Below are positions 10,173 to 21,480 of a stretch of DNA of 64,000 nt, one piece after another. The number at the start of each line of letters is the position of its first letter. The stretch's first letter is position 1. The DNA lies in assembly GCF_030915505.1 (NCBI RefSeq), contig NZ_CP133265.1, forward strand, positions 2,570,001-2,634,000, written 5' to 3'. The translations under genes and the position numbers were made by a program. The notes beneath the pieces are model-generated. The model did not search any database. It was not told the origin of the DNA and worked only from the letters and a program-made list of their open reading frames with translations. Source of the DNA: Neobacillus sp. OS1-2 (GTDB lineage Bacteria; Bacillota; Bacilli; Bacillales; Cytobacillaceae).

Positions 10173-10201
10173 TTGACAATAAACCCAATTTCTTTTATCC
10201 T
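10173..10201 (+). promoter_or_regulatory. Promoter of the riboswitch-add unit
   Basis: TTGACA, 17-nt spacer, TATCCT, placed so that transcription would start just before the purine aptamer. Confidence 0.5.
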
Positions 10202-10215
10202 TCCTTTATAAATAA

Positions 10216-10333
10216 TTTCTCGTATAACTCCAATGATATGGTTTGGAGGTCTCTACCAGGAACCACTAAATTCCTGATTACGAAGAAAATACACTTTCCT
10301 GTATTTTCTTCGTAATCAGGAATTTTTTTTTTG
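10216..10333 (+). promoter_or_regulatory. Adenine-type purine riboswitch with terminator
   Basis: Aptamer features match the purine class: ATAACTCC...GATATGG...GGAGG for P2/L2, TCTCTACCAGGAACC for J2/3 and P3, and TTCCTGATTACG for P3/J3-1. The specificity base in GATTA is U, which in this class selects adenine (guanine aptamers have GACTA). The 3' half of the aptamer is also the left arm of a perfect 26-bp terminator (10268-10293 with 10300-10325) followed by a long T-run. Adenine binding would therefore prevent termination and turn the downstream gene on, like pbuE. Confidence 0.9.
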
Positions 10334-12710: not shown

Positions 12711-12939
12711 ACACTTTCGTGTATCCCTCTCCCACCCGCATTAAGCTAATGTTTCGATTCAACTTATGCCGGAAATCATTATATCACAGAAACGGCTCAA
12801 GGAAGGATAGGAAATCGCAGGGAGATCGGAATCATTTTGTCAGGTGATTCGGAAAGAAGAGTACCCTCCTTGAAAAAATGTGTATACATTTTTACTGATT
12901 TACGTTATTCTAATTATTACAAATTATTAAGAAAATGCG

Positions 12940-13172
12940 TTGATAGGTTTTTAGTAGTCTTTTTATCCCTGTTTTAGAGAGCTAGTGGCCGGTGAAAACT
13001 AGTACCAAATAGAAAGATGAAATTCATGCCTGGAGTATCTTTTTCGACCAGTGGAAGGGAAAGACGGTTTGTCCTCGATACGGACAGCAAAGTGGAGAAT
13101 GGGGCAGCCGATTCTCAATTAGGGTGGTACCGCGATATAGTCGTCCCTACGTTTAGACGTAGGACGGCTTTT
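12940..13172 (+). promoter_or_regulatory. T-box leader
   Basis: The T-box core AGGGTGGTACCGCG (13121-13134) is intact and followed by a terminator (CGTCCCTACG/CGTAGGACG then T-runs). Stem I elements are visible: AGTA at 12953-12956 and a distal stem CTAGT...ACTAG with loop GGTGAAA. The specifier lies in GAAATTCATGCCTGGAGT (13018-13035): TTC (Phe) or CAT (His) fit the rule that a purine follows; the sequence alone does not decide. Uncharged tRNA would promote readthrough into the transporter gene. Confidence 0.9.
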
Positions 13173-19826: not shown

Positions 19827-20072
19827 TTACTTTGTTACTTTAATATAGAAGTAGATATCCTGGTTGACCTTTGTCGGTTCAGCGATAAGCTGGTAACCAT
19901 GCTTGACTACTTCTTCTGGGACACTTCTAAATGATTGTGGACAATCGGCGATGACTAGCAAAGTTTCCCCAACCTTCATATTTTTTAGCGCATCCAGCGC
20001 ATAAATGACAGGATATGGTCATGGCTCACCGCGAATATCTAAAGTGTAATTAACGTCCATTACTTGTGACAA
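19827..20072 (-). CDS. yedF: YedF/TusA-like protein with in-frame TGA at the CPxP cysteine (candidate selenoprotein)
   Basis: An 81-codon frame from a TTG (AAAGGAGG 8 nt upstream, inside the end of yedE) to TAA. It reads LDIRGEP-TGA-PYPVIYALDALK and continues to YFYIKVTK without any other stop or shift. In the TusA/SirA/YedF family this exact position is the conserved, functional cysteine of CPxP. A single TGA at 20019-20021 (complement) on that residue, with a hairpin at SECIS distance, suggests selenocysteine. The alternative is a one-base nonsense mutation of TGC. It is translationally coupled to yedE. The family works in sulfur or selenium relay. Confidence 0.8.
19988..20000 (-). promoter_or_regulatory. 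Candidate bacterial SECIS hairpin
   Basis: It begins 18 nt downstream of the TGA: GCGC, loop UGGAU, GCGC, extendable after a 2x2 internal loop by UUU/AAA pairs. The loop starts 23 nt after the TGA and carries G at its second position. Both fit the published type of bacterial SECIS consensus (loop 16-37 nt downstream, G in the first two loop bases). The 4-bp stem is at the lower limit, so this could be chance. Confidence 0.5.
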
Positions 20073-20075
20073 TTT

Positions 20076-21305
20076 TTATGCCTCCTTTGTTTGATGAGTA
20101 ACCTTTGCTGCTTTTTGCTGCTTAATCCCAGTTCCATAGCGGAATCGTTTTTCCCACCAGTTTGAAAGGATAAACCAGACAGCCAGCATCGTAAGTGTAC
20201 CAATTAAGGCTCCGGCAGGTCCCCATAATTCGATTAAATTTACCTTAGTCCAATTGGCCGTAAGGGCATTATAGATTCCGAGGTGGTCCCAGCCGTATGC
20301 TAAAATAGTGGCGCCAATGATATTTCCTGCTCCTACTACCCAGAATAACAACTGACCTTCCATCGCCCGGTACATCATACCTGTTTCACAGCCGCCAGCG
20401 AGAACAATGCCGAAGCCGAATAGTAGTCCGCCAATAACAGTGCTTGGGGCAGCCACTTTAATAAGGGCAACGGAACCGTTTTGAATATAGAAAAAGGTAA
20501 TGACTACACTAATCATCATACCAACTGCGATTGCTTTCGACATAACCGCACGTCCGCTAATCCATAAATCGCGGAAGGCTGAGGTGAAACAAATCTGTCC
20601 GCGCTCTATTAGAATGCCAAATAGTGCACCCGCAATCGAAGCGACAGCTAATAGATTTTTACCGACAACGAAAAAGTAAACGATCACACCGCAATAGAGA
20701 ATAAATAGAAGTAGTCCTAACTTCGGTTGAATGTTTGACTTTTGAGTTTTCGCTGCCGCAATGGGGTTAATTGCACCCATTCGTATGTTGGGCTTTCCGC
20801 GCCACCATTTCGTATTTACTACCTTCACACCAAAGTAGGTCCCGATTGCTGTTGCAAGCATAAATATCCATGAATGGAAAGAAAACTGGGGAACACCAGT
20901 GAAAAAGGCGGCTAAGTTACAACCAAGTGCTAGGCGTGCTCCAAACCCTGCGATAATACCGCCAATAAACCCTTGAACTAAGCGGCGCTTTTGCTTCGGA
21001 ACGCGGATTTTAAAGCTGTTGCTGAGTAAAATGGTAATAAGTGCACCAATGAGCATTCCAATGACAATCCATCCGTCTGTACGGCTTAGTGGGGTCCCTT
21101 GGAAGCCAACTAATTGAAAATAGGCCCAATCTGATACATCTATACCAAACCAGCCCAAAATATGGGCGCCTAATCTAGTGAATTCCCCTGTTACGGCCCA
21201 GACAGTCCCGGTAATCCCGAAATACAAAGCACTAACCAAACCGGCAATACCAACGGCTATGTAGGGATTCCAATATTCTTTAAAGATTTTCCGATATAAA
21301 TTCAA
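20076..21305 (-). CDS. yedE: YedE family membrane transporter (putative selenium transporter)
   Basis: About 409 residues and about ten membrane spans in two YeeE/YedE repeats. Repeat landmarks are GARLALGCNLAAFFTGVPQF and LAGGCETGMMYRAMEG, each with the conserved cysteine of this family, plus ERGQICFTSAFRDLWISGR. The overall order closely resembles what I know of Escherichia coli YedE. Related YeeE moves thiosulfate; YedE is linked by genome context to selenium. The TTG start is preferred (GAGGAG upstream); a GTG 13 codons earlier lacks an RBS. First gene of the yedE-yedF operon. Confidence 0.88.
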   Translation of the reverse strand: MNLYRKIFKEYWNPYIAVGIAGLVSALYFGITGTVWAVTGEFTRLGAHILGWFGIDVSDWAYFQLVGFQGTPLSRTDGWIVIGMLIGALITILLSNSFKIRVPKQKRRLVQGFIGGIIAGFGARLALGCNLAAFFTGVPQFSFHSWIFMLATAIGTYFGVKVVNTKWWRGKPNIRMGAINPIAAAKTQKSNIQPKLGLLLFILYCGVIVYFFVVGKNLLAVASIAGALFGILIERGQICFTSAFRDLWISGRAVMSKAIAVGMMISVVITFFYIQNGSVALIKVAAPSTVIGGLLFGFGIVLAGGCETGMMYRAMEGQLLFWVVGAGNIIGATILAYGWDHLGIYNALTANWTKVNLIELWGPAGALIGTLTMLAVWFILSNWWEKRFRYGTGIKQQKAAKVTHQTKEA

Positions 21306-21480
21306 CGAAATTCTCAACTCCTCATAAAAAAGATTTATATGCACAATAAATAATTTTAATTATTTTTCAGATGAACATCAATAGCATTTTGATGGTAAAG
21401 TGTGAACAAATAAATAAAGAAAAAACGCGAGGAACGAAACAAATCGAAAAACTGGTTCCCCTTGCATTTCATCTTGTATA

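Follow-up and report, generated by a model that had tools for sequence, protein, structure and literature searches.

Comparative evidence for a selenocysteine-containing YedF encoded beside yedE in Neobacillus and related bacteria

What does an in-frame TGA signify when it falls on the CPxP cysteine codon of a TusA/SirA/YedF-family gene: a broken reading frame or selenocysteine (Sec)? The question is raised by a short gene in a 64,000-nt stretch of DNA (hereafter, the window) from the single-contig, 4.73-Mb genome of Neobacillus sp. OS1-2. This gene, yedF (19827..20072, minus strand), starts with TTG, encodes 81 aa followed by a TAA stop and contains one in-frame TGA (20019..20021, minus strand). 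An earlier note, made from the letters of the window alone, had described an otherwise intact frame with its single TGA exactly at the CPxP cysteine, and both parts of this description held. When the TGA is read through, the product scores 69.3 bits against PF01206 (TusA; cut-off, 28.6) and 95 bits against the curated YedF equivalog model PRK11018 (cut-off, 79), and 16 TGA rows and 6 Cys rows align at the CPxP position. The scores against the TsuB/YeeD family model (32.4 bits), the TusA equivalog model (41.2 bits) and the two-domain YedF model TIGR03527 (23.6 bits) lie under the respective cut-offs of 147.5, 78 and 110. The last of these describes a SirA plus DsrE architecture; the window protein, with only 81 aa, shares the TusA-like N-terminal domain but has no DsrE domain. 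In the mechanical ORF list, the region is represented by just a 50-aa downstream piece, and we infer that yedF has presumably been missed or called truncated by annotation in many Bacillaceae and related genera.

Directly upstream of yedF lies yedE (20076..21344, minus strand), which encodes an fdhT-type YeeE/YedE membrane transporter (PF04143; 569 bits against NF033796, the selenium-metabolism YedE/FdhT model). Its start at 21344 is that given in the ORF list, and its open frame contains no TGA. The ribosome-binding site of yedF, AGGAGG (20081..20086, minus strand), is a direct reading of the sequence and lies within the 3′ end of yedE, as the earlier note had stated. The TTG codon (20072-20070), which had also been placed inside yedE, is instead located three bases past the yedE TAA stop (20078-20076). 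This TTG comes 8 bases after the end of the AGGAGG motif, and the aligned start position is occupied by M (so ATG) in many relatives and by L or V in some; the TTG start is credible because of this spacing and the M found at the same point in many relatives.

When 84,980 species genomes were scanned once with the window protein, 116 relatives emerged, and the 80 best of these were analysed further. In all 80 of these loci, as in the window, yedE is upstream of yedF. The CPxP codon is TGA in 49 loci and TGT or TGC in 31, a ratio that is no population frequency because the loci were selected by their match to the window protein. According to the record titles, the TGA carriers include Neobacillus, Cytobacillus, Robertmurraya, Mesobacillus, Litchfieldia and Schinkia, with Siminovitchia, Calidifontibacillus, Aneurinibacillus, Brevibacillus and Tumebacillus as further carriers; 25 of the 31 Cys forms belong to Paenibacillus. 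The earlier note had proposed looking among homologues for Cys/TGA exchange at this codon and for further damage to the frame in close relatives. The exchange is plain from the counts above, and no further stop occurs within the aligned stretch in any of the 80 yedF loci. In the TGA genes, pN/pS is 0.08 for the nine codons that precede the TGA and 0.11 for codons +12 to +44 downstream of it (49 of the 50 TGA rows, L029 being excluded as a near-copy of the window), values that point to purifying selection alike on both sides of the TGA. The excluded row, Bacillus sp. MM2020_4, is a near relative in a separate record and has the same TGA; therefore, a sequencing error is very unlikely. A pseudogene or an assembly error, with the TGA arising from a simple nonsense mutation or from a miscalled base, would fit the single in-frame stop in an open frame and the lone 50-aa piece in the ORF list, but is extremely improbable because the TGA recurs in 49 of the 80 relatives, across many genera and separate records, and pN/pS downstream of it is about 0.1.

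In a midpoint-rooted YedE tree of 79 of the 81 rows (L068, which is cut short, and L107, which is split in two pieces, were left out), the YedEs with predicted Sec partners and those with Cys partners fall on the two sides of a fully supported branch, L072 excepted, and two changes, the older of which may have run in either direction, explain all Sec/Cys states. A second cysteine of YedF, at alignment position 40, is invariant in 22 YedF rows, and in two more distant TGA genes (L181 and L182) it is found a few residues further along. This cysteine might resolve the adduct formed at the CPxP site. One genome of the window's own family (locus L132, G022:C1:4111500-4119500) has two predicted Sec-yedF copies approximately 2.4 kb apart, both with TGA and the same hairpin.

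The hairpin in question, UUUA-(bulged U)-GCGC-UGGAU-GCGC-UAAA (19984..20005, minus strand), is defined by its fold and by comparative data. Its core stem-loop extends from 20000 to 19988, with the bulged U at 20001 and the loop at 19996-19992, and GCGC-UGGAU-GCGC starts 18 nt after the TGA, where the earlier note had placed a SECIS-like hairpin. The 41-nt fold of the yedF sequence from the window has an energy of -9.4 kcal/mol (z -2.18), which is modest evidence as a single-sequence fold because 6 of 200 shuffles fold as well. It is on the comparative evidence, not on the single fold, that the hairpin is judged to be far beyond chance. Codons +7 to +10 after the TGA are GCG CTG GAT GCG in the TGA genes; CTG and the second GCG occur in all 50 of them, GAT occurs in 48 and the first GCG in 47. 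Over these four codons, the pairwise synonymous difference (pS) is 0.0002 in 49 TGA genes versus 0.72 in 31 Cys genes, which indicates selection on the hairpin at the RNA level in the TGA genes only. The four codons are also kept in 19 of 20 more family members.

We further examined pairing in a SECIS alignment of 57 rows, consisting of the 50 TGA rows and 7 of the 15 class-sample TGA loci described below (the other 8 repeat the window or earlier loci). Among the 54 distinct TGA sequences, 95.5% of the cells are paired and the four core pairs are present in 54 of 54, whereas only 44.3% of the cells are paired in the same columns of the Cys genes, no better than in shuffles. Four rows, of which three are closely related, have A-U instead of G-C as the outermost core pair, and UA, GC and CG replace one another in the lower stem among the TGA genes. 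Two-sided changes counted by cell, as well as the covariation score, were above the values of all 500 shuffles. For two of the five covariation measures, namely the number of pairs showing two-sided change and that of additional pair types, 241 and 311 of the 500 shuffles were as high, because most core pairs never vary and compensatory changes are few. In the remaining one of the 20 additional family members (L180), the codons read GCA CTG GAT GTG, so that an inner core pair is changed from G-C to A-U on both sides and the amino acid is changed as well; the lowest-energy fold of this sequence by itself is a different one.

The exception in the YedE tree adds to the SECIS case as a natural experiment. 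Aneurinibacillus sp. Ricciae_BoGa-3 (L072) has TGC at the CPxP codon, although its YedE sits within the TGA clade beside a TGA sister. Its codons now read ACG CTC GAT GCC, and the hairpin codons are no longer kept. The SECIS of E. coli fdhF has a bulged U and a G in its loop. Rfam, searched at permissive E-values, gave no SECIS family at the yedF site; with its bulged U and UGGAU loop, the yedF hairpin is nevertheless, as far as comparison of sequences can tell, a bacterial SECIS.

Decoding of UGA as Sec depends on the sel genes, whose presence the earlier note had suggested checking. All four were found in the window genome: SelA (561.7 bits), SelB (349.5 bits) and SelD (400.7 bits) are all above the model cut-offs, and ARAGORN called a selC tRNA-Sec with a UCA anticodon. 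This genome also appears to use UGA in other genes. In selD, a TGA lies in frame within KAG-U-GCK, and UxxK is the motif listed for Sec-SelD (PMC9312934); FdhA has a TGA ahead of HAP (U-HAP). In a second frame resembling a formate dehydrogenase large subunit (L134, G000:C1:1768000-1773000), a TGA precedes HS, and this is probably another Sec protein. Five further TusA-family frames in the window genome are all stop-free.

Co-occurrence of TGA-yedF with selA was assessed in a class sample of 398 genomes, in which the YedF search scored at most 14 candidates per genome and the selA search at most 4. YedF was found in 31 genomes, 18 with one TGA and 13 stop-free. Although selA is present in only 86 of the 398 genomes, it is present in all 18 TGA-yedF genomes versus 3 of the 13 without TGA (Fisher p 6e-6; 1e-5 when the window genome is left out). 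Reading of the site confirmed TGA at CPxP in 18 of 18 and Cys in 11 of the 13, and selA is found in 3 of 11 when just the genomes with Cys at the site are counted. In the remaining two stop-free relatives (L149 and L150, in G285 and G243), no motif with TGA or Cys followed by P-x-P was seen. In the window's own family (193 genomes), selA accompanies 45 of 47 TGA-yedF and 8 of 8 Cys-yedF, but co-occurrence is uninformative there because selA is nearly universal (172 of 193). The two TGA-yedF genomes without selA are both 80-81% complete. The site was read in 22 of the 47 TGA genomes (20, the window genome and G022 with both of its copies), and all 8 of the others have Cys. No matching genome of the family and class samples has a TGA copy and a stop-free copy of this yedF together, G022 having TGA in both. 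A phylum sample of 398 genomes gave 7 matches besides the window genome, all with TGT or TGC, and tblastn of plasmids gave 24 records, all below 60% identity. In 2 of the 80 loci, selA and selB adjoin yedEF, and selD does so in none: the gene order is selA-selB-yedE-yedF in Siminovitchia fortis (L098), and selA and selB flank yedEF on either side in Brevibacillus massiliensis (L077).

The sel genes, the Cys/TGA exchange and the hairpin selection confined to TGA genes bear out the proposal of the earlier note that the UGA of yedF is read as Sec. With a probability that we put at roughly 0.95-0.97, yedF would be a functional selenoprotein gene. UGA at CPxP would be decoded by SelB, tRNA-Sec and the SECIS 18 nt downstream, and the product would be a YedF/TusA-type carrier with a selenol as its acceptor thiol. 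It is very improbable that the UGA is a true regulated stop, or that it is read as another amino acid (e.g. Trp or Cys) without the Sec machinery; the hairpin is kept in TGA genes only, selA occurs in every TGA genome of the class sample, and Cys is the sole exchange partner among the 80 loci. Pseudogene, sequencing error and plain read-through were rejected on comparative grounds, namely the 49 of 80 loci with TGA, the hairpin and pN/pS.

A selenoprotein of this kind is absent from the lists that we consulted. TusA, SirA and YedF do not appear in a May 2026 inventory of 119 prokaryotic selenoprotein families (PMC13188914, Table 1) or in a selenoprotein list of 2022 (PMC9312934), both of which contain a YeeE/YedE protein, a DsrE-like protein, rhodaneses and SelD. 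The available portions of the deep-Sep paper (PMC12013277), a 2016 survey (PMC5029168), selenium-gene papers of 2015 and 2008 (PMC5322559, PMC2432076) and an epsilonproteobacterial survey (PMC4607533) describe no Sec-containing TusA or YedF, and none was found in the open-licence literature. NCBIfam 20.0 gave no match to a model named as a Sec form of YedF. Sec-SelD and the YeeE/YedE-family selenoproteins (PMC13188914, Table 1) are likewise selenium- or sulfur-handling proteins that hold Sec, but they belong to other protein families, and the YedE of the window has no TGA. Like YedF of E. coli (yedF, PRK11018) and FdhU of C. jejuni, the window protein has a single TusA-type domain with CPxP and is encoded after yedE; unlike them, it is predicted to have Sec in place of Cys and a SECIS within its coding region. 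As judged from sequence comparison, Sec-YedF thus adds to a known family a new branch that contains Sec; the branch was found here in the window's class only, and TusA belongs on selenoprotein search lists.

What might a selenol accomplish at this site? The YedF model, built with Cys at the Sec site, has the TusA fold (pLDDT 90.7). Its Foldseek matches are TusA, YeeD and SirA-like structures, and the best PDB match is the YeeE-YeeD complex 8j4c (TMq 0.92, 35% identity). The TusA sulfur carrier (PDB 3lvj) has the same fold and CPxP acceptor site, but the window YedF is under the TusA cut-off and would have Sec for Cys. YedE was aligned to the YeeE structures 6leo, 6lep, 8j4c and 8k1r. The two halves align in swapped order (query 236-344 with chain 6-116, and query 78-169 with chain 229-320), as if YedE were circularly permuted relative to the solved YeeE. 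By count along the alignment, C252, C319 and C142 of YedE match YeeE chain positions 22, 91 and 293, and all three are kept in 79 of 79 YedE rows. The YeeE cysteines at chain positions 91 and 293 presumably take part as relay cysteines. The pair therefore resembles YeeD/TsuB with YeeE/TsuA, the thiosulfate uptake system (8j4c, 8k1r), in the fold, the paired membrane protein and the three cysteines, but differs from it in the YedF score under that family's cut-off, the predicted Sec acceptor and the swapped halves of YedE.

According to the part of the YeeE-YeeD study at hand (PMC11073785), that system imports thiosulfate; the CPxP Cys of YeeD binds and breaks down thiosulfate relayed by conserved YeeE cysteines, of which C22 is named, and its replacement by Ala left no significant activity. 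By analogy, YedF probably docks on YedE as the acceptor, at the cytoplasmic mouth. The three YedE cysteines would relay a species from which the Sec of YedF takes one atom of selenium (or sulfur); the Sec would thereby form a perselenide or a selenenylsulfide and would hand the chalcogen on, probably to SelD, towards Sec biosynthesis. That selenium rather than sulfur is the main cargo and is moved inward is an evenly balanced proposition, selenium being favoured because the family travels with selenium genes. The role of Sec-YedF is accordingly best described as a well-founded guess.

Export is the first alternative to be weighed. If abundant selenium is needed for YedF to be completed, the pair could act as a safety valve that exports or detoxifies excess selenium. 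Full-length YedF would indeed require selenium, and export by YedE was suggested as a hypothesis by Lin et al. in 2015, in the text available from that paper (PMC5322559). We nevertheless consider export distinctly unlikely. YeeE-YeeD, the homologue of solved structure, is an importer of thiosulfate (PMC11073785, in part). FdhT and FdhU, the C. jejuni names of the YedE/YedF pair, control formate dehydrogenase activity according to the excerpts of two papers (PMC4178425, PMC5322559), the first of which cites a title calling the effect selenium-dependent, and this control in Campylobacter suggests supply. In addition, SelD, which is required at low selenium too, may likewise be a Sec protein.

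The second alternative, that sulfur is the cargo, through thiosulfate-like uptake or through sulfur transfer, and that Sec is just the better nucleophile, seems improbable but deserves somewhat more weight. It draws on the three cysteines that YedE keeps from the thiosulfate channel YeeE and on the decomposition of thiosulfate by the CPxP Cys of YeeD, as given in the accessible part of PMC11073785. However, the protein passes the YedF model (95 versus 79) and fails those of TsuB/YeeD (32.4 versus 147.5) and TusA (41.2 versus 78), and selA and selB stand beside yedEF in two genomes.

The inward selenium reading can be taken a step further, tentatively and with doubt on our side. Sec-YedF may be a dedicated perselenide carrier and at the same time a selenium gate, forming a selenium-selective route from the membrane to SelD. 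YedF would be completed only with charged Sec-tRNA, and the YedE-YedF pathway would therefore be switched by the selenium that it handles. If this is true, a feedback loop is built into translation, and the selenol picks selenium from a large excess of sulfur. In the matching genomes of the family and class samples, no stop-free copy of this yedF accompanies a TGA copy, but the five other stop-free TusA-family frames of the window genome could stand in for yedF.

These considerations bear on how selenium is taken up and delivered to SelD without mixing with sulfur. The available portion of one study (PMC11097638) states that a dedicated selenium transporter is known in no organism. It also describes Methanococcus maripaludis lacking the yedE locus, in which selenium transport was not clearly altered and at most a mild effect was seen with selenocystine, a result that weighs against the function proposed above. 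The in-vivo selenium form and donor of SelD remain unclear, according to part of the 2026 inventory (PMC13188914). Sec at the acceptor site of a suspected transporter's partner would tie YedEF to selenium more directly than gene neighbourhood does, and Sec-YedF offers a small soluble protein for probing both the cargo and its direction.

Two minor observations concern RNA genes and elements. The window genome contains a second tRNA-Sec-like sequence (L002, G000:C1:4192062-4192166) with a UCA anticodon and 83% identity to the true selC; it is above the Rfam cut-off and has no ARAGORN call, and its acceptor stem looks broken by eye. Of 60 genomes examined in the genus, 59 carry sequences resembling selC (the true selC included), at up to 11 places per genome. 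Many of them cover the 3′ part alone, and the sequences resemble remnants of attachment sites left by mobile elements with selC as their insertion target. Across the window, Rfam at its own cut-offs gave two elements and nothing else: a purine riboswitch at 10200-10300 and a T-box leader at 12931-13151, the latter immediately preceding a 446-aa ORF (13209) for a membrane protein that, on visual inspection, resembles a sodium-dependent transporter.
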